Assembly (NCBI RefSeq): GCF_003952365.1
Contig: NZ_CP034443.1
Span: forward strand, 5,821,001-5,885,000
Length of the DNA stretch: 64,000 bases
Source of the DNA: Mesorhizobium sp. M9A.F.Ca.ET.002.03.1.2
GTDB taxonomy: Bacteria; Pseudomonadota; Alphaproteobacteria; Rhizobiales; Rhizobiaceae
Reading direction: 5' to 3'
The notes under the pieces are model-generated. The model ran no database searches and had not been told where the DNA came from. It was given only the letters and a program-made list of their open reading frames with translations. Position numbers and translations under genes: made by a program. Below are positions 11,372 through 26,569 of the stretch, piece by piece (the stretch's first letter is position 1; the number at the start of each line of letters is the position of its first letter).

Positions 11372-11737
11372 ATGCATATCCAGTTTGCCGAACTGCCGGT
11401 GTTCGACCAGGACCGCGCCAAGGCGTTCTACACCAGGCATTTCGCCTGCAAGGTCGCGGCCGACGAGAAGATGGGCCATAGCGCCTGGCGCTGGATCGAG
11501 CTGACATTTCCCGGCGCTGTCACCAACCTGCATTTCGTGAGGCGCACCGACGACACGCCAGGCGCGGAGCCGGTGCTGGTGCTGGTCGACGAGGATGTCG
11601 AGGCCACGATCGCTACTTTGAAGGCGGGCGGCGTCGAGATCATCACCGAACCGCAGGAGGCGCCCTGGCAGCCGGGCCGCACGGTAGCGGAATTTCGCGA
11701 CAGCGAGGGCAACCGCATGGTGATCGGCAGCCAATGA
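11372..11737 (+). CDS. VOC (glyoxalase) family protein
   Basis: This 121-aa VOC module opens with IQFAELPVFDQDRAKAFYT and closes with TVAEFRDSEGNRMVIGSQ, matching the family length. The final half is rich in conserved acidic residues that could bind a metal. Its substrate is unknown. The gene is divergent from the sigma-factor operon with a 148-bp spacer and has GGAGAGGAG upstream of the ATG, so it may be a target of that sigma factor. This is inference from position. Two broken fragments of a close relative of this gene occur at 20664-20818 and 23156-23314. Confidence 0.88.
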   Translation: MHIQFAELPVFDQDRAKAFYTRHFACKVAADEKMGHSAWRWIELTFPGAVTNLHFVRRTDDTPGAEPVLVLVDEDVEATIATLKAGGVEIITEPQEAPWQPGRTVAEFRDSEGNRMVIGSQ

Positions 11738-11838
11738 GCGGGTCCAGTTGCTGAGTGGGTCGGCAATTGTCGTTCTCTTGCGAGAGCAAGCAGATCATGC
11801 TGGAGAAGAACAACATCTCGAGCGGCCTGATCGGTAAA
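11738..11838. repeat. 101-bp segment downstream of VOC gene, duplicated at 20718-20818
   Basis: The sequence after the VOC stop, including CTTGCGAGAGCAAG (a 5-bp stem with GAGA loop), recurs almost unchanged after the VOC fragment at 20664. In both places it adjoins IS110-type transposase debris. It was therefore moved together with the 3' end of the VOC gene. I recognise no gene inside it. Confidence 0.75.
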
Positions 11839-11888
11839 TATGTCGAGACTTACGAGTTCGCCGACCGCGGCCCGCCGCAACTAACACG

Positions 11889-12070
11889 ACGGTCGCAATC
11901 GGCATCGATATTGGCAAGGAAGTCTTCCATCTCGTCGGCTTTGGCACTGACGGGTAAGATCGCGTTCGGCCGCAAGATCAAGCGGCTGGCCCTCGTCGAT
12001 ACCTTCAAAAAGCTTGCGCCGTGCGTTGTCGGCATGGAGGCCTGCCTCAGCGCCCATTTCGTCAGCCGTG
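11889..12070 (+). pseudogene. IS110-family transposase, N-terminal fragment, frameshifted
   Basis: The frame starting at 11889 reads TVAIGIDIGKEVFHLVGFGT and then meets TAA at 11955-11957. One frame over, the reading continues with KIAFGRKIKRLALVDTFKK, APCVVGMEACLSAHFVSR. Together they match the DEDD-type N-terminus of IS110 transposases (the IGIDIGK strand with the first catalytic Asp, and GMEAC). The fragment stops abruptly at about 12070, where unrelated coding sequence begins. The rest of the transposase is missing here. Confidence 0.82.
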
Positions 12071-12340
12071 CCCTTCGCCGACCTCGGTGGGCCCGCCACG
12101 ATCACCATTGGCGCCGACAACAATGGCGAGATTGCCTTCGGCGCTCTGCAAGCCGGCCTCAATGTTAATTACAGCCCATCGATGGTCTTCTTCACATGGG
12201 GCGGCTGTGACGAGATGGACGAAGTCAGCAGTGAATTGCTCGACGACGGCTCAATCGAAATCACTTTCGCCTACCACAACGGCGACGAGGCCATCCTCAA
12301 AGCCACGAAGCACTTCTTCAACAGCCTGCTAGAGTTATGG
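12071..12340 (+). pseudogene. Fragment of a small unknown protein fused to IS110 debris
   Basis: An open frame of about 90 codons reads DLGGPATITIGADNNGEIAF, ALQAGLNVNYSPSMVFFTWG, then a Glu/Asp-rich segment ending ITFAYHNGDEAILKA. The regular hydrophobic and acidic pattern looks like genuine protein. It has no start codon of its own at the left junction, and the open frame runs on past 12340 into the next gene region. I treat it as the stranded C-terminal part of a gene cut by the IS110 event. Its family is not recognised. Confidence 0.55.
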
Positions 12341-12410
12341 AGGGCTATTCCGCTCGGCACCTTGCTGATAGACTGTGTTTCGCTGGTTAGTTCGAACGCT
12401 GAGAACAACC

Positions 12411-14432
12411 ATGTTTCCGTCTTCAGGTCGACAGTGGTGCCTTTTCCTGTTGCTTCCATTGCTGGTGGCGACGCCGATCGCCAGCAATGCTCAGGAGAAT
12501 AGCGCCGGCTCGCCGACCGACCCCTTCCTCGGATTGGATCCGTCGTCGTTCGATCGAATATTCGGCGAGGCCCTTCGGCGCAAACCGCCGCCGCCCTCGC
12601 CCGCGACTTCACCGGAGATGCTGGCCAACAATGTCACCGAACTGCGTGTCTTCCTGACGCAGGAGCCCGGAGTGGTGGTGGGAGAGATCGCGACGACCGG
12701 CCCATCGACCCTCACGGAATTCCCGGTGGCGCTGGAGGATGGAGTCGTCACCTTTCGCGACGACGGCGCCGAGCCGGATCGAGAGAAAGGCGACGGTGTA
12801 TTCACCGCGCAGTTCAAGTTTGACGCCACTGGGGAGTTCGCGGCGCTGCGCGCCGACCTGGCGGCGACGATAGACGGTTTAGGCGAGCAACAGCAGAATA
12901 CCGGGTTGATACGGCGCGGGCCCCGCGACATCGTCACGACCGCCGCCGCAGCCAGCGATGCCGAGCTCAAGATGGTCGGCCCGCTTAACGAGGCACGCAA
13001 AGGGTTGGAGTGGGCACGGGGCCTGCGGGACAGCCAGGATCCGGACCCGCTGCGCGCGGCGCAAGGGCTGGAGATCAATATCGGCACAACACCGTTCCTG
13101 CGCCTGCCGGGGCCGCGGTTCCACGAGTTGCTGCCGCAGCGCTTCAGGGTCGAATACCTCTTCGATTTTCCGATCTTCCCGGGGTTTCCACCCCCGCTGC
13201 CCACCGCCATTGACCATGAGCGCTCACTGCTGATCACTGCAACGGATGTGGTCGAGGACAGCGCGCGCAGCTTCGATGCCTGCAGCGGGCTTGGGTCGCC
13301 GGGCGGCGCGTGGAGCTTCGGTCACCTGATGCGCGAGCTGGCCAATGGCACCGGCCTCACACCGGAGGAATTCACCCGGCACTGGCTATCGAGCTGGCAA
13401 ATTCCCCAGGAGGCCAACGGCTGGATCGTAACCGAGCCAGCGCGCGCCATGCGGCTGCAATCGCTTGTTATCGACAACTGGCGGGCCTTGTCGCCCGGCG
13501 GCGTTTTCAATGTCGACTATTTCCCGGCGCGACTTCTCGCCATCGTCAATCGGCCCGACCTTGCCGATCGCATCGGCTATGGAACCGCCGGTAGCGCCGG
13601 CGAGGGGCGCTTGGTGTTCGGGCTGGTCTACCACGATCCAGCCTCCAATAGCTGCAATCCGATGAACTTCACCGTCATCTTCGAATACGGCATCGCTGCC
13701 GGCTCGTGCATGGAGGTCAAGGCGTGGCACCGGCGCTGGAAGGATCTCGACCAGTTCACCGTCGGCAGTGCCGCTTACAATCAGGCGCTGGAATCCATCA
13801 CCCGCGCCGTCACCGATCACGGATCGAATCCCGGCCAGCTTCCCAACATGAGCTCACTCAGTCAGCTGAGGACCAACGAGACCGTGCTGAGTGTCCCCTG
13901 GCAGCTGCGCGAGTTCCGCCTGCAGCAGGACGGACTGCTCGATCTGGTCACGGTCAAGCAGACGCCTGACAATCAATTCAACAGCAGCGCGATCCTGCGG
14001 ACCTATCTCGGCATCAACGAGGCCGCCATCCTCGACGATCGGCATGTGGTTCCCGAGCGCTTTCCCACTATGTTCGATCGGTTCCTGGGCGCCGTGTCCA
14101 ACACGGATGTGAGTAGCTACTTCTGGTGGGTTCCCAATCCCAGCAGCACTCTCGCCGATCCGCTCGAGACGCGCCGCAAGTTTTCGCTCGCCACTTGCAA
14201 CGGGTGCCACAGCGGCGAGACCGCAACCCAGTTCACCCATATCGGCACACGCGACATGGCCACGCCCGCGCAGCTCTCGGGATTCCTGCTGGGCGAGGAC
14301 ATCACGGTACCGCAAGGCGGCGGCACACATCACTATGAGGATCTGACCGAGCGCGAGATCGCAATGTCCAACCTGCTCGGACGCTCGTGCCTCCTGCTCC
14401 TGGGCTTTCGACGGTTGCCCTTCGTTCACTGA
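12411..14432 (+). CDS. Large exported protein with choice-of-anchor-like domain and CXXCH motif
   Basis: This 673-aa protein has a signal peptide (hydrophobic CLFLLLPLLVATPIASNAQ). Residues about 110-150 contain VTFRDDGAEPDREKGDGVF, which resembles the immunoglobulin-like repeats of large bacterial surface proteins. Near the C-terminus is CNGCH (Cys596), the form of a covalent c-type haem site, although this is a single motif and no distal methionine can be assigned. The middle (AWSFGHLMRELANG, FPARLLAIVNRPDLADRIGY) is conserved-looking but not assigned. ATG 12411 gives the best signal peptide; an ATG at 12375 would add 12 residues. It precedes the YcaO island on the same strand as the small gene at 14699. 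A periplasmic or surface role is likely. Confidence 0.75.
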   Translation: MFPSSGRQWCLFLLLPLLVATPIASNAQENSAGSPTDPFLGLDPSSFDRIFGEALRRKPPPPSPATSPEMLANNVTELRVFLTQEPGVVVGEIATTGPSTLTEFPVALEDGVVTFRDDGAEPDREKGDGVFTAQFKFDATGEFAALRADLAATIDGLGEQQQNTGLIRRGPRDIVTTAAAASDAELKMVGPLNEARKGLEWARGLRDSQDPDPLRAAQGLEINIGTTPFLRLPGPRFHELLPQRFRVEYLFDFPIFPGFPPPLPTAIDHERSLLITATDVVEDSARSFDACSGLGSPGGAWSFGHLMRELANGTGLTPEEFTRHWLSSWQIPQEANGWIVTEPARAMRLQSLVIDNWRALSPGGVFNVDYFPARLLAIVNRPDLADRIGYGTAGSAGEGRLVFGLVYHDPASNSCNPMNFTVIFEYGIAAGSCMEVKAWHRRWKDLDQFTVGSAAYNQALESITRAVTDHGSNPGQLPNMSSLSQLRTNETVLSVPWQLREFRLQQDGLLDLVTVKQTPDNQFNSSAILRTYLGINEAAILDDRHVVPERFPTMFDRFLGAVSNTDVSSYFWWVPNPSSTLADPLETRRKFSLATCNGCHSGETATQFTHIGTRDMATPAQLSGFLLGEDITVPQGGGTHHYEDLTEREIAMSNLLGRSCLLLLGFRRLPFVH

Positions 14433-14698
14433 AGGCGTGCCCCCTTGCTGGTATTGTGCCTGGAATGATACTTTGATGGGCCACGCTGGATTGTCCTGCC
14501 GGGGCGCGGATCAACAATTGATCAGCAATTGCGTTTGTCACCGAGGGGTCGGACGCGCGCGGTGTACTATGCTTCTCCCGCGGCGGGTATGGCAGGGAAA
14601 TGCCCTTTGCCATGTTCGGACGAGAGTGAAAGCAACCGACGGCCAAGCCCGGCCCGAGCTTTAATCCTGCTTGAATTGTTTATTTGGGGAGAAGGGAA

Positions 14699-15160
14699 AT
14701 GGCCAAGCTCAAGATGTTCCAGGGTAACAATCCAGGTGGGAACATCCCAAACCAGCAAGGGTACAGGAATGTTGCGACCGGCGTGCTCAACAACCTCGCC
14801 GCTTTTCGGAACGCCTCCACCACGGACCGATCTGAATTGCTGAAGCAATATGCAACCCCCGCGCACAAGATTTTTCAGCAGACCAGAAGTCCAATACAAG
14901 ACGTTGAGATCAGCAAAAACAATTGTAAGATAAGCATCTATAATGACGAAAGGAAAAAGCCCGCGGTAAATTTCGGTAAGCACAAAATGGTGTTGCCGGA
15001 GATGCAGACAGGCGACCCTCCGCTGGACTCCAATTATCTCGCCCCATATGTGCAAGCGATCGTTGCCCTGTATGGTGCGACTGGGGGCGGTACGCCAGCC
15101 CAAGTAACGGCCGCGTGCGAGTTCCTGTTCGGGATCATGCTGCTCACGCGCTGCCGATAA
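14699..15160 (+). CDS. Small protein of unknown function, convergent with YcaO gene
   Basis: This 153-aa protein starts MAKLKMFQGNNPGGNIPNQQ and is preceded by GAGAAGGG. It is rich in Asn, Gln and Lys, and its DNA is clearly more AT-rich than the flanks (for example 14920-14990), which suggests acquisition from elsewhere. The C-terminus has two cysteines in AACEFLFGIMLLTRCR. I recognise no family. Its stop lies 6 bp from the stop of the convergent YcaO gene. It could be a substrate, partner or immunity-type protein for that enzyme, or unrelated. No leader-core organisation typical of a modified peptide is evident. Confidence 0.68.
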   Translation: MAKLKMFQGNNPGGNIPNQQGYRNVATGVLNNLAAFRNASTTDRSELLKQYATPAHKIFQQTRSPIQDVEISKNNCKISIYNDERKKPAVNFGKHKMVLPEMQTGDPPLDSNYLAPYVQAIVALYGATGGGTPAQVTAACEFLFGIMLLTRCR

Positions 15161-15166
15161 GAGTGG

Positions 15167-16396
15167 CTAAACCAGCAACGTCACCTGGTCCTCCGGGTTC
15201 GGGAGGACGGGGCTGAGGTCTGGGTGATCGGGTGCCAGCAGTCGCTTGCGGGCAAATCGCGGCTTGAAATGGCAAAGGTCGGGCGAGATCGCCCTGACTG
15301 CCGGCACGCCCACGACGTCGCGGGTCATGTCGGCAAACCATAACGCAACGTCCGCGCGGGCACAGGCCTCTAGAGGCGCACCGGGCCATAGCGCCTTGTT
15401 CTTTGTTGCTGGGGAATGCTTCACCGCGTGCGCCGCATCAAGCGGCGGCAATGCCATCGTCACCGCTTGTCGCCACGCCGCCCAGCTAGCGGTGGGACCC
15501 AGAGCGCGCACCGTGGCGAGGGAGAATTCCATCTGGACCATCTCGGTGAGAGCCGCCGCTCCCGCCTCGCGCATGTCAGGTCGCGCGGCGAATCCCAGCG
15601 CGACGTCGCTGCCGTCCGGCTCAGAGGACGCGGCGGCAGCCACGGGCACGCCGAGGTCGCTGGTGATGTCGAAGAGCCATGTGTCCCGCTCGCGCTCGCC
15701 GAGCCACGTAACCAGCCCGCTCGCGTCGTCGAGCAGCGCGAGATCGATCAGTGGCCTGCGCCTCCGGCCATACCACCAGCGCGTACTGGCATCGCTTTCG
15801 ATCAACTCCAATAACGCGGCGTGTCTGGCGCTCTCGATATCGGCACCGCAGGCGCAGCCATTGCTGTCGCCGATCGCCACCGCGCTCTCGTCGCCCGTTT
15901 CCTTGCGGCCGATAAAGGCGAAGTCGGCAGGAACATAGGCTGCTGGCCCGCCATATGCGTCCTCGACCGCGAGCCAGTCGATCGGCGTGGCCGGATCGCG
16001 GCGCGGCGGCCGCCAATCGAAGCTGCGATGCCGTTCGTTCCACGCAATGCGGTCGCCGAGTTGGGCAGCAGTAAAGCCGTTCAGCACCTCGGGCGAGAGC
16101 ACGGCGGGTCCGATCTCTTCGTCACGCGCGCTGACGAGTTGTTCGTCACCCCATGCCGAGCATGACACGAGTTCTGCGGCTTCGCGGAGTGCGCTTGTCC
16201 GGGCGCCCGTCGCGGTGAAGCCTCGCCCGCTTGCCATTCGCCCCGGCACTGGCCGCGCCGCGCGCGGGAAACCTGGTATCTTGAGCAGGGCGGCGCCCGG
16301 TATCGCGATCGCCAGGCGGACAGGGCCACGCTGCGGGAGCTCAACGGCGTTGAAAAGCTCCTCAAGCTTCCGCGCCGACCTGTCTTTCGCTGTCAT
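15167..16396 (-). CDS. YcaO-domain protein (ATP-dependent backbone modification enzyme family)
   Basis: This 409-aa protein is a stand-alone YcaO domain. Known members use ATP to activate peptide amide bonds, forming azolines, thioamides or amidines. Visible family segments are GRGFTATGARTSALREAAEL (S68, E72, E75), SNGCACGADIESARHAALLE and LIESDASTRWWYGR (N179, E197, E200), and the C-terminal TRDVVGVPAVRAISPD. Two arginines usual in the ATP-binding motifs are replaced (L76 after E75, S201 after E200). The C-terminus PVLPNPEDQ is only loosely like the PxPxP tail of azoline-forming members. ATG 16396 has GGGAGAG upstream. The gene is divergent from the cyclase regulator at 16490 with a 93-bp spacer. 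No E1-like or TfuA partner is adjacent. Confidence 0.85.
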   Translation of the reverse strand: MTAKDRSARKLEELFNAVELPQRGPVRLAIAIPGAALLKIPGFPRAARPVPGRMASGRGFTATGARTSALREAAELVSCSAWGDEQLVSARDEEIGPAVLSPEVLNGFTAAQLGDRIAWNERHRSFDWRPPRRDPATPIDWLAVEDAYGGPAAYVPADFAFIGRKETGDESAVAIGDSNGCACGADIESARHAALLELIESDASTRWWYGRRRRPLIDLALLDDASGLVTWLGERERDTWLFDITSDLGVPVAAAASSEPDGSDVALGFAARPDMREAGAAALTEMVQMEFSLATVRALGPTASWAAWRQAVTMALPPLDAAHAVKHSPATKNKALWPGAPLEACARADVALWFADMTRDVVGVPAVRAISPDLCHFKPRFARKRLLAPDHPDLSPVLPNPEDQVTLLV

Positions 16397-16489
16397 ATTC
16401 TCTCCCTTTGTCCCATCTGGTGCAATTACATCGACATAACCGGTCAACCGCGCCACAATACCTGGGGACCATGTCGTAAGCTGGCCACG

Positions 16490-18943
16490 ATGCAAATTGA
16501 AGCCGAATCGCCGGCGCTGAAGGCGATCCTGTTCGCGGACCTTGCCCAATACAGCCGCTTGACGGCCGCAGGTGAACTCGCAGCAATTGATCTTGTCACC
16601 CAGTGCTTTTCGCTGTTCAAGGACCACTGCCCGCAGCACCGCGGAGAATTCGTCAAGACGACGGGCGACGGTGTACTGGCCCTGTTCGATAGCGTTTCCG
16701 ACGCGCTCAACTACGCGGTCACGATGCAAGACAAGCTTGCGGCCCTAGCCGTGGAGCAGCCCGCTGCTGGCCGGTTTAGGGTTGGACTCCATATGGGCGA
16801 AATCCGCCGCCGTACAGGCGACGTCTATGGCCATGCTGTCAACCTCGCCGCCCGTGTGCAAACGCTAGCCACACCCGGCAGCATCTGCGTCACTGAGGAG
16901 GTCTACCGCGCGGCGCGCAGCACCACCGACTACGGGTTCCGCTTCGCTGGCCGCCACGCCCTCAAGAACATGCCTGAAACGATGTCGTTCTATCATGTGA
17001 TTCCGCATCACATGTCCCAGGACAAACCCGGCCCCTCGCAATTCTCGATCTCCGTTATGGGTGGGCTTGCTGTCCTTGATAGCGACGGCGAGCCCGTCGC
17101 CTTGCGGTCGCGCACGGCGCAGGCACTCATCGGGTACTTGGCGCTCTCGACAGGCTTCAGGGAATTGCGGGACAGGATTGCAACGCTTCTGTGGCCCGAG
17201 CGTACACCAGCCGAAGCGAGGAGCGCCCTGACCGGTGGTCTGCGCATTGCGGCCAAGGCTCTTTCCGGCGAGTCAAAGAATTCGGGACTGCGGCACGGCA
17301 ACCACGTGACCCTAGATCCCGCACGCGTGATCGTTGATATCAACCGAATCTTCACGGACCTCAGCGAAGGCAAGGTCGACGATACGCTGCTCGAGCGGTC
17401 GGATTGGACCGAGGCGATTCTCTATGGCTTCGAATCGGTCAGCAGCCTCTATGGTGCCTGGCTCCGCGTGACTCGCCACAACCGCCGGAACCGGGCAGAG
17501 GAAGCGCTGGAAAGCCTGCTGAGCCGTTTCGATGCGAGCGAGCCGGTCATCCGGCACGCGGCAAGCGCTTTGCTCATGCTCGAGCCATCCCATGAAGGCG
17601 CGGCACGTTGCCTGATGCGCCACCATGCGTTCAATCAGAATGTCGCTGCCGCGCGGCGCGTTTACAACAAACTCGCGAGCACCTTGCGCCAAGACTATCA
17701 GCTGGAACCCAGCGTCGAAACCACTGCGCTCGCCGCCAGTTTGGCGGACCCCACGCTCCCCCGCCAGCCCGAAAAGCCATTGCAAGGCCGTGCGCCGATC
17801 ATCGCGGTCTGCACTTTTGTGAGCGAGAGCGATGCCGTTGCCGCTTTCGCGTCCGGCTTCCGGTCCGAACTGATTATCAACCTTTCGAAATTCCGAGAGT
17901 TGACGATCCTTGATATGCAAGATGGCCGCGACGCCAGTGATGCTGACTATCAGCTCAAGGCCGATTGCCGTGGACTTGGCAACCAGTGCGCGCTCTTCGT
18001 TTCGCTCGAAGAGAGAATGGCGTCCCGAGTCGTGTGGAGCGAACCGTACAGGCTCACACTTGCAAACTGGCACGCTACGCAACGCCAATTGGTCGGTCGG
18101 CTTGCCTCAAACCTGGAGATCTATCTCTCCCAAGACCGCCTTGCGCGTGCGCTTCAGCGGCTGCCCGAAGACTTGGACGTCTATGACACGTGGCTGCGCG
18201 GCGAACACTTGCTCCTACGCTGGTCGGCAAAAGCAGAAGATGAAGCCGAGCGGCTGTTTGACCAGGCGATCATCGAGGATGCGACGTTCGCACCGGCACA
18301 CGCAAGCCTCGCAAGCGTTTATAATTCGCGACATTTCATAAGACCCGGCTGCCCGCGCGACGCGCAGACCCAACAGCGCGCGCTCGCTCTGGCGAGGCGT
18401 GCGGTCGAGCTCGACCCCCTCGACGCGCGCAACCACATGGTCGTGGCCTGGTCGACGGCGATGGTGCAACGCTTCGAGCAAGCCGAATTGCACTTCGAAT
18501 TGGCCGCCGAGCTTAATCCGAGCGATCCAAAGGTCATTGTATCGGCTGCGTTAGGGTTGGCTTTCATGGGCCGCATGGATCTGGCAACCAAACTGACCGC
18601 CCATGCTCTTGAGCTGACGCCGCTATTTCCAGACTATCAGTGGTCCCATCTGGCAACCACGCGCTTTCTCGCCGGTGACTATTTGGGCACGATCGAGGCC
18701 GCTGAGCGTTCGCAGAACGTGATCATCGATACGCCGGGATGGAAGGCGGCAGCGCTCGGCAAGCTCGGCCGCCTCGAGGAGCGGGAGGCAGCGCTGAAGG
18801 AGTTGCTGCGCGCGGCGGAAGCTGCCTGGGCCGGACCTGCCAACCCGTCGAGGCGGGACATCATCCAATGGTTTCTCGGCGCCTTTCCGATCCGCCGCAC
18901 AGAAGACCGACTTAAGGTGGCGGCTTCGTTGGGACGGTTTTAG
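16490..18943 (+). CDS. Class III adenylyl cyclase - BTAD/SARP-like - TPR regulator
   Basis: This 817-aa protein has three parts. Residues 10-165 form a class III nucleotide cyclase domain with both metal-binding aspartates (D17 in FADLAQYS, D60 in KTTGDG), the adenine-reading K56 and D111, and the transition-state pair N118 and R122 (VNLAARVQ), so it looks catalytically competent. Residues about 180-450 resemble the winged-helix plus BTAD module of SARP regulators (TAQALIGYLALS, LLWPERTPAEARSALTGGL). The C-terminal third has tetratricopeptide-like repeats (AEDEAERLFDQAIIEDATFA, ARRAVELDPLDARNHMV). It stands divergent to the intact YcaO gene, with a YcaO remnant directly after it, so it probably controls or works with that locus. 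Confidence 0.88.
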   Translation: MQIEAESPALKAILFADLAQYSRLTAAGELAAIDLVTQCFSLFKDHCPQHRGEFVKTTGDGVLALFDSVSDALNYAVTMQDKLAALAVEQPAAGRFRVGLHMGEIRRRTGDVYGHAVNLAARVQTLATPGSICVTEEVYRAARSTTDYGFRFAGRHALKNMPETMSFYHVIPHHMSQDKPGPSQFSISVMGGLAVLDSDGEPVALRSRTAQALIGYLALSTGFRELRDRIATLLWPERTPAEARSALTGGLRIAAKALSGESKNSGLRHGNHVTLDPARVIVDINRIFTDLSEGKVDDTLLERSDWTEAILYGFESVSSLYGAWLRVTRHNRRNRAEEALESLLSRFDASEPVIRHAASALLMLEPSHEGAARCLMRHHAFNQNVAAARRVYNKLASTLRQDYQLEPSVETTALAASLADPTLPRQPEKPLQGRAPIIAVCTFVSESDAVAAFASGFRSELIINLSKFRELTILDMQDGRDASDADYQLKADCRGLGNQCALFVSLEERMASRVVWSEPYRLTLANWHATQRQLVGRLASNLEIYLSQDRLARALQRLPEDLDVYDTWLRGEHLLLRWSAKAEDEAERLFDQAIIEDATFAPAHASLASVYNSRHFIRPGCPRDAQTQQRALALARRAVELDPLDARNHMVVAWSTAMVQRFEQAELHFELAAELNPSDPKVIVSAALGLAFMGRMDLATKLTAHALELTPLFPDYQWSHLATTRFLAGDYLGTIEAAERSQNVIIDTPGWKAAALGKLGRLEEREAALKELLRAAEAAWAGPANPSRRDIIQWFLGAFPIRRTEDRLKVAASLGRF

Positions 18944-19165
18944 GAGGCTAGTCGTCGCTCGGGAGATTGCTGGCCTGCGTTCCTCGCCGTCGACCTCACA
19001 CGGCAGGAGATCGGCGTTCCCGTCGTCCGCGTCGTCGTGCCCGGCATGCGGCCGGTGCGCCGCCGTCTGGCGGCCGGACGGCTGTTCGATGTCCCGGTCA
19101 GGCTGGGCTGGCGGGAGAAGCGGATGTCAGCTCGGGAAATGAATCCGGTCCCGATGACGGCGTAA
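18944..19165 (+). pseudogene. C-terminal remnant of a second YcaO-family gene
   Basis: Directly after the regulator stop, in the same frame, the sequence reads PAFLAVDLTRQEIGVPVVRV, VVPGMRPVRRRLAAGRLFDV, PVRLGWREKRMSAREMNPVP and ends at TAA 19163-19165. This matches the C-terminal end of YcaO proteins, where a D-L-T-R strand, a V-P-V-V-R-V strand and a G-R-L-x-D-V-P-V-R-L-G-W tail are typical. The N-terminal ATP-binding part is missing and there is no start codon. It differs in sequence from the intact YcaO at 15167-16396, so it comes from a second gene and is not a simple tandem copy. Confidence 0.78.
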
Positions 19166-19247
19166 AGGAGCAATCCCATTAAAAAAGCTCTCGCAAAATC
19201 GGCCCGGTTGGGAGAATATTAGCGCCCTCTAAATAGTGGAGAGAGAA

Positions 19248-20024
19248 ATGAAGAAAACCTGCGCGACAGGAGTTCTGATCTTGGCTCTGGCTTTCAGCGG
19301 TCCGGCGTGGGCCGATACAGTCAGGGTGGGATACACTCCGGAGGCCTACTCGCCCTTTTTCTCGCAGGATGCTTCAGGCAAATGGGGAGGATGGGAACTC
19401 GAAATCGTCGACGCGCTCTGCGTGGAGGCTAAGCTCGACTGCGTCCTGACGCCGACCGCATGGGACGGCATCATCCCAGCCCTCACGACCAAAAAGATCG
19501 ACATGATCGCGGCGTCCATGTCGATAACCGAAGAACGGATGAAGACGATCGATTTCTCCGACCGTTACTACAAGTCGCCGGCCGCGGTAGTCGCGGCCAG
19601 GGGATCAGAGATCAGCGCTACGCCGGAAGGCCTGAAGGGCAAGATTCTTGGAGTCCAGCTGTCCACTACCCATGAGGCTTATGCCCGAAAGCACTTCGCT
19701 TCGGCAGTGGCCGAGATCAAGGGTTATCAGACGCAGGACGAAGCGTTTCAGGACCTCGCGGCAGGAAGGGTCGACGCCGTGCAGGGTGAAGCTATCGCGG
19801 CGGAAGGCTTCTTGGCCTCAGACCAGGGAAAGGCCTGCTGCGAGGCGAAGGGCAACGTCGTTGACGACCCGGAGATACTCGGCCTCGGCGCCGGCTTCGG
19901 CTTCCGGCAGGACGACGACCCTCTCAGAGAGAAGATCAACGCCGCCATCAAGGGCATCAGGGCAAGCGGCAAGTACGACGAGATCTCGAAGAAATATTTC
20001 ACTTTCGACATCTATGGCGATTGA
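19248..20024 (+). CDS. ABC transporter substrate-binding protein, family 3 (polar amino acid type)
   Basis: This 258-aa protein has a signal peptide (MKKTCATGVLILALAFSGPA, cleavage after AWA) and the family-3 solute-binding fold. Typical segments are VRVGYTPEAYSPFF, WGGWELEIVDALC, WDGIIPALTTKKIDMIAASM with SITEERMKTIDFSDRYY, and the C-terminal INAAIKGIRASGKYDEISKK. It should capture an amino acid or opine in the periplasm. ATG 19248 has GGAGAGAG upstream; a GTG four codons earlier is an alternative. No permease or ATPase gene is next to it, so it is an orphan or serves a transporter elsewhere. Confidence 0.9.
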   Translation: MKKTCATGVLILALAFSGPAWADTVRVGYTPEAYSPFFSQDASGKWGGWELEIVDALCVEAKLDCVLTPTAWDGIIPALTTKKIDMIAASMSITEERMKTIDFSDRYYKSPAAVVAARGSEISATPEGLKGKILGVQLSTTHEAYARKHFASAVAEIKGYQTQDEAFQDLAAGRVDAVQGEAIAAEGFLASDQGKACCEAKGNVVDDPEILGLGAGFGFRQDDDPLREKINAAIKGIRASGKYDEISKKYFTFDIYGD

Positions 20025-20453
20025 CGAGGTGAGATCTGACTGCCGACTTCGACAAAGTTGCCCCGGTCGGAAGAACCGGAAATCGCCCGATCCGGACTTC
20101 GCAATTTGACAGCTCCACAGTCGGCATTGGGGGGCAAACACGGACACGATGCCACCGGAACCGAATGTCTTCTGTGGATGGCTCCCGCGATGCAAGGGGT
20201 GATTTGACGTTTTGACGATTGGGTCTGGTGCAGTCTTCTGTCCGGCCTATTGATGCAGTCGTTCATGGTGACCGCTGGCCTTGATGGTATCCGCGAGTCG
20301 GGTCCCACTCTGCTTTGCGGGCAATGACGCCCACGACATTCGCACGGGTTGTCCCGGCTCCCGGTCTGACCGGTTCGCCATCACATCTCATCGCCCTTGC
20401 AACTGGTGAACTTCCTGCTCCTTCGCGTCTCGCTTCATTGGCACCGAACCAGA
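20025..20453. other. Gene-free interval of 429 bp
   Basis: No supported gene. The sequence contains several short dyads but no conserved motif I can name. Its right end borders the IS110 transposase fragment, so part may be the non-coding end of that element. Confidence 0.45.
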
Positions 20454-20663
20454 TCAGGCTGCGGCGCTGATCGGCGCCCGATAGGTTCCCCCGCGCGTCA
20501 TGATGGCCCAGGCCACGCGTACCGTCCGGTTGGCGGCAGCCACCGTGACGAGGCGTGCTGGTTTGCGGGCCAGCATGGCAAACAGGCGCGGATCAACCGA
20601 TGCTGGCTGTATCCTCGCCCGTCGGACGAGCGAGGTCGTGCCGACCACCAGCAGCCGACGCAG
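20454..20663 (-). pseudogene. IS110-family transposase, C-terminal fragment
   Basis: On the minus strand the sequence reads YLRRLLVVGTTSLVRRARIQ, then AMLARKPARLVTVAAANRTV and RVAWAIMTRGGTYRAP before a stop. This is the characteristic end of IS110 transposases, where a L-A-R-K-P segment and an A-N-K/R-x-A-R-x-x-W-A helix precede the terminus. The N-terminal catalytic part is absent. At 20663 it is joined directly to a piece of a VOC gene running in the opposite direction. Confidence 0.82.
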
Positions 20664-20818
20664 GTAGCGGAATTTCGCGACAGCGAGGGCAACCGCATGG
20701 TGGTCGCCAGCCAATGAGCGGGGCCAGTTGCTGGGTGGGCCAGCAATTGTCGTTCTCTTGCGAGAGCAAGCAGATCATGCTGGAAAAGAACAATATCTCG
20801 ACCGGCCTGATCGGCAAA
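20664..20818 (+). pseudogene. 3' fragment of a VOC gene plus its downstream flank
   Basis: From 20664 to the stop at 20717 the sequence encodes VAEFRDSEGNRMVVASQ, nearly the last 17 residues of the VOC protein at 11372-11737. The next 101 bp also match the segment that follows that gene. The first 100 codons are missing. The junction with IS110 sequence at 20663 is abrupt. Confidence 0.85.
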
Positions 20819-20861
20819 GCGCACCTGACGCGTCGGCCCAGTCTGTCGGGCGATTGCGTGA

Positions 20862-21391
20862 TCAAGCAGGAACGTACGTCAACCTGATCGCGTCCTCGCC
20901 GATTAAGTCGCTGGCCACGAGGCGGAGCGGCGGCCGTGGGCCGGCAAAGAACGGCTTGCCGCGACCAAGCACGACGGGTGGAAGTAGAGCCGATACTCAT
21001 CGATAAGACCAAGGTCGGTCAGGCTTCGTGCCAGGTCTGGTCCGGAAACTGCAATCTCCCCATCGAGCCGAGCTTTCAGGCCACGTATCACCGCCTCGAC
21101 GTCATCCTCGACAAGTGTGGCGTTGGGGCCGACTGACTTCAACGAGCGCGACACGACCCACTTCGGTTGGCGCCGCCACGCCGCCGCGAACTCGTGTCGC
21201 TCCGCACTCCACTCAGGACGGTCTTCGTCCCAATAGCGCATGGCCTCGTACATGCGGCGGCCGTACACACTGCCGGTCAGGTCGCGCACGTGCTCTATCC
21301 AGTGACGAAAGAGCGCGGGATCTGGCGCAAATTCCTGGTGGTCGACATAGCCGTCCAGGGACTGGTTCATTCCGAAGACAATCTTTGCCAT
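20862..21391 (-). pseudogene. Dihydrofolate reductase/RibD C-terminal family protein, one-base frameshift
   Basis: The gene starts at ATG 21391 (MAKIVFGMNQSLDGYVDHQE) and shows the family features: SLDGYVD near the start, GRRMYEAMRYW, WVVSRSLKSVGPNATLV and EIAVSGPDLARSLTDLGLID. After YRLYFHP the frame breaks. Adding one base at about 20976 restores VVLGRGKPFFAGPRPPLRLV followed by ASDLIGEDAIRLTYVPA and a stop at 20862-20864. The full product would be about 177 aa and could bind NADPH. The lost base is a G in a short run (expected CCCGG, seen CCCG), so either a recent mutation or a sequencing error explains it. Confidence 0.85.
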
Positions 21392-21528
21392 GCTGCAAAT
21401 TTCCATCCCGAGTTGGTTCTTCACAATAGCTGGAACCGCTGTGACACGGAAAGGAGGTTGGGCGCAAACGGCGCGCCGCTTTGTCGGTGTGACGAATATT
21501 TCTCGTTTACCACCGTCCGCCGGCGGGG

Positions 21529-22221
21529 CTACTCGTAGCGGTCGTGGCGGCGCACCCAGTCCATTCCCTCGGCTTCGTTGCGCCCCTTCGGCATAAGGTC
21601 GAGCATGGCGTAGGTGCCCATCATCACTTCTACGCCGCGGCCGTAGGTGGAGTAGGTGCGGAAGACCTCGCCCGCGTCGTCCTTGAAGAACGCGCTGACG
21701 CCCGGCCATTCCTCGCCGGTTTCCCGCCATTCGCCGAAGTTGTAGTCGATGTGCCCGGTGGCCACCTCCTCGGGCGTGAAACTGACCCGGAAATCGTAGT
21801 TGAAGTCGTTGCCGAAGGACGACACCCATTTGAATTGCCAGCCCATACGTCTGCGATAGCGCTCGATCTCGGCAAGCGGCGCGCGCGAGACGGCGATCAT
21901 CGTGACGTCGTGATGCGCCAGATGCTTGTTCATGCCGTCGGTGTGATCGGCCATAAATGAGCAGCTCGGGCAGCCGTCCTTCCATCCCGGCGCGAACATG
22001 AAATGTTGTACCAGAAGTTGCGAACGGCCGTCGAAGAGATCGCCGAGCGTGCGAGGGCCATCCAACGTGTCGAACACGTATTCCTTGTCGATACGCACCC
22101 ATGGCAGGGCGAGCCGATCGCGTGCGACCTTGTCGCGAAGATGGGTGAGGTCCTTCTCCGCTTTCAGCAGGTTCCGGCGGGCGGTCAGCCAGTCATCGCG
22201 TGAAACAACAGCGTGTTGCAT
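21529..22221 (-). CDS. DUF899 thioredoxin-like family protein
   Basis: This 230-aa protein matches the DUF899 family, which adopts a thioredoxin-like fold. Diagnostic segments are WLTARRNLLKAEKDLTHLRD, LPWVRIDKEYVFD, FMFAPGWKDGCPSCSFMADH with a CPSC redox-type pair near residue 84-87, and VFRTYSTYGRGVE. The function of the family is not established; the CxxC suggests redox chemistry in the cytoplasm. The start overlaps the end of the upstream membrane protein gene (22193-22516) by 29 bp, so the two are translated from one message. Confidence 0.9.
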   Translation of the reverse strand: MQHAVVSRDDWLTARRNLLKAEKDLTHLRDKVARDRLALPWVRIDKEYVFDTLDGPRTLGDLFDGRSQLLVQHFMFAPGWKDGCPSCSFMADHTDGMNKHLAHHDVTMIAVSRAPLAEIERYRRRMGWQFKWVSSFGNDFNYDFRVSFTPEEVATGHIDYNFGEWRETGEEWPGVSAFFKDDAGEVFRTYSTYGRGVEVMMGTYAMLDLMPKGRNEAEGMDWVRRHDRYE

Positions 22222-22516
22222 TGTCAGTCTCCTTCGGTTGGGCGACGGAAATGTCGCGGTGCTGCGAACGGGCGGAAACGAGTTTCAGCCACGGCGATAC
22301 GTGAAAGAGGCTCATCAGCAGATACATCAGGGCCATGTCGTTGATCGGCATGAAAGCCGAGGCGGCAGAGCACATGGTCATGCCCGGCGAGCCGACGGCA
22401 GAGATCCAGGCCATCAGTGCGAAGGTCGGGGCGGCGGCGAGCCCGAGCCAGCCGGCAAAATCGACCGCCTGCCCGAGCAACGAAGCGGCTTTCTCTTTTG
22501 CTGCAAACATCATCAT
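22193..22516 (-). CDS. Small membrane protein of unknown function
   Basis: This 107-aa protein has two or three hydrophobic segments (AVDFAGWLGLAAAPTFALMA, FMPINDMALMYLLMSLFHV) and ends in a polar tail with CCFTR. The first of three consecutive ATGs (22516) was chosen because GGAGG lies seven bases upstream. It overlaps the DUF899 gene by 29 bp, so the pair forms a translationally coupled operon. I know of no assigned function; similar membrane proteins accompany DUF899 genes in other rhizobia only as far as I can recall. Confidence 0.8.
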   Translation of the reverse strand: MMMFAAKEKAASLLGQAVDFAGWLGLAAAPTFALMAWISAVGSPGMTMCSAASAFMPINDMALMYLLMSLFHVSPWLKLVSARSQHRDISVAQPKETDNATRCCFTR

Positions 22517-22868
22517 TTGCCGTCCTCCGGTCGAATTCGCCGTTTCCAACGGTTTCGATACGAAGACGCTATCTCGGGCGGATGGGGAGGTGAGAGTTAC
22601 AAGTGTGACGGGATATCAATGGAGGGCCGGAAACAGATTTGCAGCTTCTGTCTGCTGCCAAGCGAAGAGTGGACGTTCGCACCAGCCCACGCTGGCTGGT
22701 CGATATGGGCGCGCCTTGCGGACTCTGAACCATCAATCTTCATGAGCGTTGGGGTACTGCGCTGACGCTCGCCCCATCGGCCCGAATTGTCTTTCCGTCT
22801 TGTCGCGGCAACGTGGCACCGTCAGGAAAAAGAAACATCAAACAGGAAGATAGAGACCTGTCTTGATT
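22517..22868. other. Gene-free interval of 352 bp
   Basis: This is the upstream region of the membrane protein/DUF899 operon on one side and the edge of the rearranged cation-efflux fragment on the other. I see no gene and no clear operator. A motif of the type AGTGGACGTTCGC (about 22670) resembles short spacer sequences seen elsewhere in the window. Confidence 0.4.
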
Positions 22869-23155
22869 CTATTTATGCAGATCGGGCGCCTGGCGCTTGA
22901 CATGTTCATGGCGGTGGTCCGCATCCGCGCTCGCAAATCTGATATTGGCCGCCGCAAGCGCCGGCATGTGCTCGAACAGCTCGTCTTCCAGCGCCGTGGT
23001 GATCTTCTTCGCTTCGGAGACCGGCAGGCTTTCTTCGACGGCGATGGCGATGTCGGCGTGCAGCTTGTGACCGATCCACCCGCGCCTTGGCGTCGACGAG
23101 GCGCACGTCCGGCACTTGCGCGGCGGCATCAGGCTCTATGCCGTCGAGCATGCGG
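22869..23155 (-). pseudogene. C-terminal fragment of a DmeF-type cation efflux gene
   Basis: This is a broken copy of the end of the dmeF gene at 25529-26569. On the minus strand it reads WIGHKLHADIAIAVEESLPV, SEAKKITTALEDELFEHMPA and LAAANIRFASADAD, identical or nearly so to the intact protein. An extra C in CACCCGCG (about 23078) shifts the frame, and a segment near the DGIEP region is shortened. The His-rich tail is replaced by a short unrelated end. The transmembrane part is missing. Confidence 0.87.
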
Positions 23156-23314
23156 GTGCTGGTCGACGACGATGTCGAGGCAACGATCGCCGCTTTGAAG
23201 GCGGGCGGCGTCGAAATCATCAGCGAACCGCAGGAGGCGCCTTGGCAGCCTGGCCGCACGGTGGCGGAATTTCGCGACAGCGAGGGCAACCGCATGGTGA
23301 TCGGCAGCCAATGA
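23156..23314 (+). pseudogene. 3' fragment of a VOC gene fused to the dmeF fragment
   Basis: The sequence encodes VLVDDDVEATIAALKAGGVE, IISEPQEAPWQPGRTVAEFR and DSEGNRMVIGSQ, the last 50 or so residues of a protein almost identical to the VOC at 11372-11737, with the stop at 23312-23314. It begins at a shared GCGGGTGCTGG-like junction with the reversed dmeF fragment. The 5' half of the gene is absent, so it is not functional. Confidence 0.87.
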
Positions 23315-23553
23315 GCGGGTGCAGCCGGAGGGCGGGCATCTGAATTTTGACGCGCCACTTTGAACGGCTGGAGAGAGTGGGGAGCGGACATGCCCCTGCC
23401 AATTGCATATCGAACCCTGACGAGCATTGCGCTAGAACATCGTGCCACGCTACGTCATGATCTCCCTCCAAACGCCCTAAGCGAGGTCACATTGATGCAT
23501 GGCGCGCCGGGTTCATCAGACCCGCATCACGGCGGGAGAACGAGTTCGGCATC

Positions 23554-25528: not shown

Positions 25529-26569
25529 TTAGTGGCTGTCGTGTTCGCCGTGAGCATGTTCATTGTGAGCATGTTCATGGCGACGATCCGCATCCGCGCT
25601 CGCAAACCTGATATTGGCCGCCGCAAGCGCCGGCATGTGCTCGAACAGCTCGTCTTCCAGCGCCGTGGTGATCTTCTTCGCTTCGGAGATCGGCAGGCTT
25701 TCTTCGACGGCGATGGCAATATCGGCGTGCAGCTTGTGACCGATCCACCGCGCCTTGGCGTCGACGAGGCGCACGCCCGGCACATGCGCGGCGGCATGGC
25801 GGATTTCGCCGATGACGCCAGGCTCGATACCGTCGAGCATGCGGGTCAGCACCGAACGCGCCGACTGCCAGACGATGCCGAAGATCGCCAGCGTGATGAG
25901 CAGGCCGACAACCGGGTCGGCCAGCGCAAAACCGAGCCAGACGCCGAGCGCCCCGATGACCACGGCCAGGCTGGTCAGGCCGTCGGTGCGGGCGTGGTAG
26001 CCGTCGGCAATGAGTGCGGCGCTGTTGATTTCCCGGCCGACGCGGATGCGGAACACGGCGACGGCCTCATTGCCGAGAAAGCCGACAATGCCTGCCGCCG
26101 TCAACCAGCCAAGATGCGTCACCACGCGTGGATTTATCAGACGCTCGATGGCCTGATAACCGGCGACGATGGCGCTGAACAGGATGATCACGACGATGAT
26201 GATCCCGGCAAGGTCCTCGACCCGGCCAAGGCCGTAGGTGAATGTCGGCGACGGCTTGCGGCGGGCCAGCATGAACGCGATCCACAGCGGAATGGCGGTG
26301 GTGGCGTCACCGATGTTGTGAATCGTGTCGGCCAGCAGCGCCACGCTGCCCGACAGCACCACGACGACCATCTGCATCGCCGCCGTGATGGCCAGGATGA
26401 CGAACGACCATTTTATCGCCCAGATGCCCCGGTCGGTCGTCGCTATGGTCGCATCGATGACCCCGTGGGTATGGCCATGCCCCCCGTTGCCGTGGTCGTG
26501 ACCGTGTACGGCATGATCGCGCGCCCCGAACCCGAGCCAGTCGAGAATGCGCGCGCCGAGAGCGCTCAC
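25529..26569 (-). CDS. dmeF: Cation diffusion facilitator, Ni/Co efflux (DmeF type)
   Basis: This 346-aa CDF transporter exports divalent metals in exchange for protons. The metal sites are visible in TM2 (LLADTIHNIGDA) and TM5 (ALIADGYHARTDGLTSL). Histidine-rich stretches occur at both ends (HDHGNGGHGHTHG and HEHAHNEHAHGEHDSH), as in DmeF proteins. The gene starts with GTG at 26569, whose GTGA overlaps the stop of the regulator gene, so the two are translationally coupled. It is followed by a NicO-type pump. The paired regulator points to Ni/Co and against Zn. A broken copy of its 3' end is at 22869-23155. Confidence 0.92.
   Translation of the reverse strand: MSALGARILDWLGFGARDHAVHGHDHGNGGHGHTHGVIDATIATTDRGIWAIKWSFVILAITAAMQMVVVVLSGSVALLADTIHNIGDATTAIPLWIAFMLARRKPSPTFTYGLGRVEDLAGIIIVVIILFSAIVAGYQAIERLINPRVVTHLGWLTAAGIVGFLGNEAVAVFRIRVGREINSAALIADGYHARTDGLTSLAVVIGALGVWLGFALADPVVGLLITLAIFGIVWQSARSVLTRMLDGIEPGVIGEIRHAAAHVPGVRLVDAKARWIGHKLHADIAIAVEESLPISEAKKITTALEDELFEHMPALAAANIRFASADADRRHEHAHNEHAHGEHDSH

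Follow-up and report, generated by a model that had tools for sequence, protein, structure and literature searches.

The DNA examined here, referred to as the window, is a stretch of 64,000 nucleotides from Mesorhizobium sp. M9A.F.Ca.ET.002.03.1.2 (genome G000, 6.4 Mb in the single contig NZ_CP034443.1), and it carries an island of genes built around a YcaO enzyme. Table 1 presents an overview of the island. The YcaO gene is intact, converges across a gap of 6 bp with the gene of a 153-amino-acid (aa) protein, and diverges from the gene of an 817-aa regulator, all as described in a first-pass annotation whose open reading frames (ORFs) agree in their coordinates with those re-examined here. 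While that account listed the genes, it overlooked the CNGCH protein, the borders of the island and the C-terminal motif of the small protein. The recurrence of this gene set in many related bacteria suggests that the YcaO chemically alters a Cys near the end of the small protein. It is therefore proposed, as the reasonably likely reading of the sequence comparisons below, that the island is a compact protein-modification system in which the YcaO would modify that Cys, probably to a thiazoline. Hereafter, L-numbers denote YcaO-type or comparison loci and G-numbers the genomes compared.

Table 1. Features of the island and its borders, in positions of the window.
Feature	Position	Strand	Evidence or remark
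153-aa small protein, proposed YcaO substrate	14699..15160	+	ORF; ribosome-binding-site-like GGAGAAGGG ahead of ATG
Last 12 residues of the small protein, FLFGIMLLTRCR; motif hydrophobic-Gly-x6-Cys-x-COOH with penultimate Cys152	15122..15157	+	alignments
YcaO, 409 aa, single domain, open	15167..16396	-	PF02624 7.2e-54; profile matches LynD, TruD, MusD
817-aa regulator: class III cyclase (~16523-16993), SARP/BTAD-like module, TPR-like repeats	16490..18943	+	
CNGCH (haem-c-like) protein, ~673 aa, signal-peptide-like start	~12411..14432	+	start and secretion judged by eye
C-terminal remnant of a second, different YcaO	18965..19165	+	E=2.2e-13; 53% to L060 YcaO
Amino-acid-type solute-binding protein	19248..20024	+	PF00497 1.3e-34
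Block common to G166	12329..20170		99.2% over 7,845 bp
Left direct repeat: glyoxalase gene 3' end and downstream DNA	11668..11838		91.8% to 20651-20818
Right direct repeat	20651..20818		91.8% to 11668-11838

The assignment of the enzyme to the YcaO superfamily follows from a Pfam score of 183.7 bits against a cut-off of 25.7. Four residues presumed to be the ATP-site glutamates (E72, E75, E197 and E200) are invariant in an alignment of 11 rows. When the YcaO profile was compared with solved structures, LynD, TruD and MusD were nearest (3.5e-76 to 1.1e-69), with the archaeal MJ1094 far behind at 1.8e-25. Since LynD, TruD and MusD form azolines and lie so well ahead, an azoline is the preferred reaction. 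The match to MJ1094, together with the existence of stand-alone thioamide-type YcaOs, leaves some room for a thioamide or an amidine at the tail in place of an azoline; with the conserved Cys best fitting azoline chemistry, azoline enzymes as the nearest solved relatives and no TfuA in the whole genome G000, such a product appears improbable. As for partners, E1-like proteins (TIGR03882) were found in none of the five genomes searched. TfuA (PF07812) has no match in G122 either, and in G036, G026 and G166 it sits on contigs other than that of the cluster.

Close relatives of the YcaO (at least 53%) occur in five of the 146 genomes of the genus (G000, G166, G122, G036 and G026). The same five carry the full-length cyclase-BTAD-TPR regulator, adjacent to and divergent from the YcaO in every case, so that the pairing first noticed in the window does recur. 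Further relatives came from a scan of named genomes, taken as the best 80 of 151 confirmed loci, of which 59 are alphaproteobacterial by title; the full count reached 93 YcaO loci, some of them redundant. Genes in the comparison loci were called by a custom script, poorly in L149, L183, L193 and L199, where the YcaO went unlabelled; L183 was re-read from raw ORFs, and the YcaO of L199 rests on a profile search of genomes of the order. A regulator-family label lies within 6.5 kb of the YcaO in 71 of the 93 loci. Single-linkage clustering of the neighbours without labels likewise returned the regulator (72 loci) and a haem peroxidase (34 loci) as the two commonest families.

The small gene travels with this pair, as the earlier description had invited one to ask. 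Among the 62 loci of the tree with both YcaO and regulator, 57 have a small protein with a near-terminal Cys: in 39 it is the last residue but one, in two (L097 and L142) the third from the end and in 16 the eighth. The last group comprises all 16 Roseibium-type loci, each of which pairs an NHLP-like protein bearing that Cys with a second NHLP-like gene lacking it; the two (for example in L113, L118, L126 and L147) are possibly substrate and helper. In the first 23 loci, consisting of the window and 22 others fetched among the matches listed (L059 being a near-copy of the window), every locus has one small gene ending in Cys-Arg/Lys, as against 1 of 374 other called genes. That ending was the initial criterion and proved too narrow, with 24 of 1,094 called genes in 80 loci; it was widened to a Cys near the end after the data had been seen. 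Across the 93 loci, a penultimate Cys occurs in 56 of the 390 small genes within 6 kb of the YcaO and in 0 of the 115 farther away (Fisher p 2.8e-7, a guide only since the rows are related).

Two further samples bear on this association. Small-protein profiles were made for the group of the window (A2), for the other large group (A3) and for NHLP-like relatives (A4). Among 279 genomes of the order, A3 finds 20 small proteins and A2 finds two (22 in all), with an open YcaO on the same contig, at most 5.9 kb away, in 19 of 20 and 2 of 2 genomes; the sample is not fully independent because G000 is one of the two genomes of A2 and some of the 20 may be source species of A3. The remaining A3 genome, G446 (L192), is a natural loss-of-enzyme case that keeps the peroxidase, the small protein and the regulator beside a mere YcaO fragment 2.2 kb away. 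The second sample, held out and fetched after the criterion had been widened, comprises 11 further loci obtained by YcaO alone (among 19) together with plasmid matches. The small protein is present in eight of its nine loci with YcaO and labelled regulator (L182, L183, L189, L191, L195, L196, L198 and L199), one being a Rhodobacteraceae plasmid whose small protein ends in FTRCR; L182 closely resembles loci already counted. L193 was left out as a repeat of the L149 contig, L184 and L186 are annotated as ordinary thiazole/oxazole-modified microcin (TOMM) clusters, and no regulator is labelled in L185, L190, L194 or L197. Two of these show features that were left out of the count: in L190 there is an NHLP-like neighbour that lacks a terminal Cys, and in L185 a distant ORF of 71 aa terminates in GCLRPGNGRT.

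Turning to the small protein itself, the 153-aa sequence has no match in Pfam, NCBIfam or the plasmid collection searched, and no signal peptide as judged by eye. Its gene was noted earlier as richer in AT, and low GC content is in fact a trait of the family, below that of the accompanying YcaO in 53 of 54 genes with the tail pattern. Within the group of the window (16 rows), R151 and C152 are invariant even though identity to the window protein is 13-55%. What stays constant across loci is a terminal or near-terminal Cys within the frame hydrophobic-Gly/Ala-x6-Cys. Among the 56 penultimate-Cys proteins near a YcaO, 33 have Gly and 15 have Ala at position -7, total Cys ranges from one to four and is one in 29, and four proteins are off-pattern, three of them apparently by chance. 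In the Bradyrhizobium loci L139 and L148, two tandem small proteins of this type, both ending in NCG, stand beside one peroxidase.

The tail is conserved more strictly than the rest of the protein. In L078 and L005 the YcaOs are 95% identical and the cassettes have been swapped (CNGCH protein versus peroxidase), and the two small proteins agree in 11 of their last 12 residues while the remainder agrees at 36%; for the window and L078, the figures are 12 of 12 and 51%. To judge from these comparisons, tail conservation is roughly what would be expected of a substrate with a tail that has to suit a single enzyme. In one Mesorhizobium group, the ratio of nonsynonymous to synonymous substitutions (dN/dS, pairs with finite dS) is 0.08-0.15 for the small genes versus 0.21-0.30 for YcaO, and it is lower still, 0.01-0.04, in the small genes of the L064 group, although constraint on the body of the protein varies from group to group. 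AlphaFold 2 predicts, with medium confidence, a C-terminal helix over residues 133-150, which may be a candidate element for binding by a YcaO that lacks a RiPP recognition element (RRE), RiPP denoting a ribosomally synthesized and post-translationally modified peptide.

Directly upstream of the small gene, the CNGCH protein of the window fills the slot held in many relatives by a haem peroxidase. It is present in three of the 146 genomes of the genus (G000, G166 and G036), each time within this cluster. The peroxidase is the commonest third partner (34 of 93 YcaO loci) and, in the loci that have it, lies directly upstream and on the same strand of 41 of 44 tail-pattern small genes, with gaps of -43 to 118 bp; of the three exceptions, two are the second copy in a tandem pair of small genes. 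This arrangement makes an oxidation step possible, if speculative. It also lends itself to another explanation, in which the small protein serves the haem protein as an accessory, chaperone or immunity subunit, its terminal Cys ligates or crosslinks haem, and the YcaO acts elsewhere; the haem-c-like CNGCH motif of the partner in the window would agree with such a role. However, the tail motif also occurs where no peroxidase is labelled (L060/61, L062/63, L066/67, the S8/DUF1501 loci and the Roseibium NHLP loci), and the constant companion is the YcaO, not the peroxidase, which makes a haem-subunit function a poor prospect. A different occupant of the slot is seen in eight Mesorhizobium loci (L074-L077, L106, L120, L122 and L123), where a subtilase and a DUF1501 protein take the place of the peroxidase.

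The likeness of some small proteins to NHLP leaders raises the question of whether the end product is a peptide. In a conventional RiPP pathway, cleavage would free the C-terminal stretch as a small modified peptide, and the N-terminal fold would serve as the leader that is removed. Besides the NHLP-like proteins of relatives, a Gly-Gly about 20 residues before the end in the window protein, L078 and L058 and the S8 proteases alongside one subgroup are compatible with this; yet that Gly-Gly is found in only 3 of 17 aligned rows, and the window protein, which has three Cys in all and, by eye, one Cys and one Thr in its last 12 residues, has no Cys/Ser/Thr-rich core of the kind used to recognise E1-dependent TOMM precursors. 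As for export, a family resembling ABC-transporter ATPases (its identity inferred) lies near 14 loci and ABC_tran appears in 4 of 89 scanned neighbours (25 commonest Pfam families listed), both of which may be generic, no dedicated search for exporters having been made. On balance, release of a peptide is rather unlikely, while less so than the haem-subunit or thioamide alternatives. The leader-like fold is perhaps kept instead, since only one to seven residues follow the Cys.

The regulator combines a cyclase part (PF00211, E=8.4e-15) with a BTAD module that scores 21.6 bits, just below the Pfam cut-off of 22.1, and a weak match to TPR_8 (E=0.045). The cyclase of the window keeps all six expected residues, presumably two metal-binding Asp, the specificity Lys and Asp, and the transition-state Asn and Arg. 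In an alignment of 28 rows the Asn, the Arg and the second Asp are invariant, the Lys differs in two rows, the specificity Asp is Glu in four, and the first Asp is missing in one. With its expected catalytic residues in place, the cyclase makes a link to cyclic AMP plausible. The cyclase part is optional, however: it is fused to the regulator in 26 of the 71 YcaO loci with a regulator label, and the more distant YcaOs of the genus adjoin BTAD/TPR regulators without a window-type cyclase match. Relatives that do without the cyclase show that it is not essential to the system.

The first-pass annotation had also raised the possibility that the locus is decayed, with no clear precursor present. 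On both points the comparisons point the other way: the 153-aa protein is the best candidate precursor, and the genes are open and present at 99.2% DNA identity in a second species of the genus, where the block matches a contig of G166. The second YcaO remnant 3' of the regulator is real (18965-19153, matching profile positions 345-407), its best match being the YcaO of L060 (53% over 68 aa) and not the intact neighbour. This remnant, like the fragment beside the small gene in G446, might be taken to indicate a decayed island with unrelated neighbours. Since the four genes are open both in the window and in G166, and the gene set recurs across several orders, decay is very improbable.

The shared block and the direct repeats that bracket it, which lie at the 3' end of a glyoxalase gene, fit the recent acquisition of an island at the end of that gene; the block would thus sit on a recently moved island, with the solute-binding protein as a passenger outside the system. 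Three partial copies of the glyoxalase 3' end frame the block (11574-11838, 20651-20818 and 23151-23324, in the region 11372-23324), as expected from repeated island insertion at one gene end. By eye, two genes just outside the block in G166 are recombinase-like, no search for integrases having been made. Farther right, a 232-bp repeat with 95% identity occurs at 22898-23129 and 25566-25797, the first copy apparently a fragment of the gene at 25529-26569.

Taken together, the locus encodes a genuine system that recurs and is probably functional; its broad kind is known (YcaO modification of a protein or peptide), while its build is unusual. The earlier guess that the YcaO acts on the 153-aa protein has gained strong evidence by association from co-occurrence, tail conservation and the cassette swap, and the enzyme probably changes the near-terminal Cys of this protein, most plausibly to a thiazoline, with neither an E1-like protein nor TfuA as a partner. 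Counted in support, excerpts of PMC12455567 describe a folded NHLP leader as a known type of YcaO substrate, used there by a YcaO with an RRE (MprC/MprE). A possible scheme begins with the cyclase/BTAD/TPR regulator, which would sense a signal and control the divergent or nearby genes. The small protein is co-encoded with a partner, often a haem peroxidase and here the CNGCH protein. The association of the genes strongly indicates that the stand-alone YcaO would then recognise the small protein through its C-terminal helix and the hydrophobic-Gly-x6-Cys motif. It would spend ATP to activate the amide before the Cys (Arg151-Cys152) and close a single thiazoline, with a loss of 18 Da. Finally, and speculatively, the haem partner might oxidise or use the thiazoline group. 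A broader proposal is put forward tentatively, with the balance leaning against it: a new class of YcaO system whose end product is the whole folded small protein with a single near-terminal heterocycle, which works with a haem enzyme under a cyclase/BTAD switch, and in which mobile islands exchange cassettes of partner and small protein around an unchanging YcaO and regulator.

Several observations weigh against the proposed modification of the small protein by the YcaO. Known azoline-forming YcaOs work with an E1-like or RRE partner; the lack of one here leaves recognition of the small protein unexplained. Five of the 62 regulator loci (L101, L105, L107, L119 and L125) showed no small protein with a near-terminal Cys, although several of them belong to other phyla and may carry a mistaken regulator label; none was seen in the held-out locus L200 either. 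The distance of the Cys from the end differs among subgroups, and a penultimate Cys is not very rare, occurring in 18 of 796 larger or profile-matching genes in the loci. In the S8 subgroup, the small genes are less constrained than YcaO (dN/dS 0.17-0.50 versus 0.17-0.25). AlphaFold 2 models of small proteins (predicted local distance difference test 72 and 86) gave no PDB match or known fold in Foldseek. The window protein does not match the NHLP model TIGR03793; relatives score under its cut-off (L062 4.7e-4, L149 0.0056), the former being the best reached by any Cys-bearing protein scanned, and the best score of all (1.6e-6) belongs to the Cys-less second small gene of the Roseibium-type locus L118. 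Comparison of profiles A2 and A3 detected no homology, and the alignment of A2 with A4 is short and weak (P=0.016), with A3 and A4 comparing better (P=1.9e-4, probability 48%). One common family for all the small proteins is therefore not claimed, and the tail motif could be convergent.

The proposal supplies a sizeable alphaproteobacterial group of E1-less YcaOs with a substrate that can be tested, a predicted target residue and a simple sequence motif, and it suggests that neither an E1-like nor a TfuA partner is needed for a YcaO to act at the end of a folded protein. Genes called hypothetical in the RefSeq record of a Mesorhizobium huakuii plasmid gain a context as well. None of the titles and abstract openings listed in searches of open-licence literature describes this gene set. 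A system defined by TIGR04509, TIGR04510 and TIGR04511 (a putative peptide modification system, L163-L167) looked at first like a direct match, sharing as it does a cyclase-type regulator and, by model in L164 only, an NHLP-related peptide (TIGR04509) beside it. It was rejected, since no YcaO is labelled by profile in the five TIGR04510 stretches from its own genomes, and it is thus a cousin system only; it differs further in a SagB-like dehydrogenase (TIGR04511, identified in L164 only), the window regulator scores 43.7 bits against the TIGR04510 cut-off of 400 and is not a member, and the small protein of the window has no TIGR04509 match.

Two kinds of E1-independent YcaO invite comparison as well. 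The TfuA-associated thioamidating enzymes share with the present system the absence of an E1-like protein, and differ from it in their TfuA, which G000 and G122 lack and the other three genomes hold apart from the cluster. Bottromycin-type YcaOs act on a short peptide, as opposed to a protein of 153 aa. Like the present enzyme, they stand alone and act without a C protein. YcaOs lacking an E1-like partner are a recognised puzzle, and a 2015 survey in its excerpted text calls their substrates unknown (PMC4603692). NHLP-type RiPP systems are the nearest known kind. As the excerpted text of PMC2887384 presents them, they are marked by a Gly-Gly site, by many heterocyclisable residues in their C-terminal regions, and by linked transport and cleavage models. 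They differ from the island in that its YcaO is a single domain without an E1-like partner, its Gly-Gly is not conserved, the window protein has no heterocyclisable core, and the Cys lies at the very end, in the company of a BTAD/TPR regulator and often a haem partner. What the island shares with NHLP-type TOMM and proteusin systems, as far as the excerpts of PMC2887384 and PMC12455567 describe them, is a YcaO domain adjoining a folded, leader-like small protein of unusual length; among the relatives of the small protein in the island, some match the NHLP model weakly.

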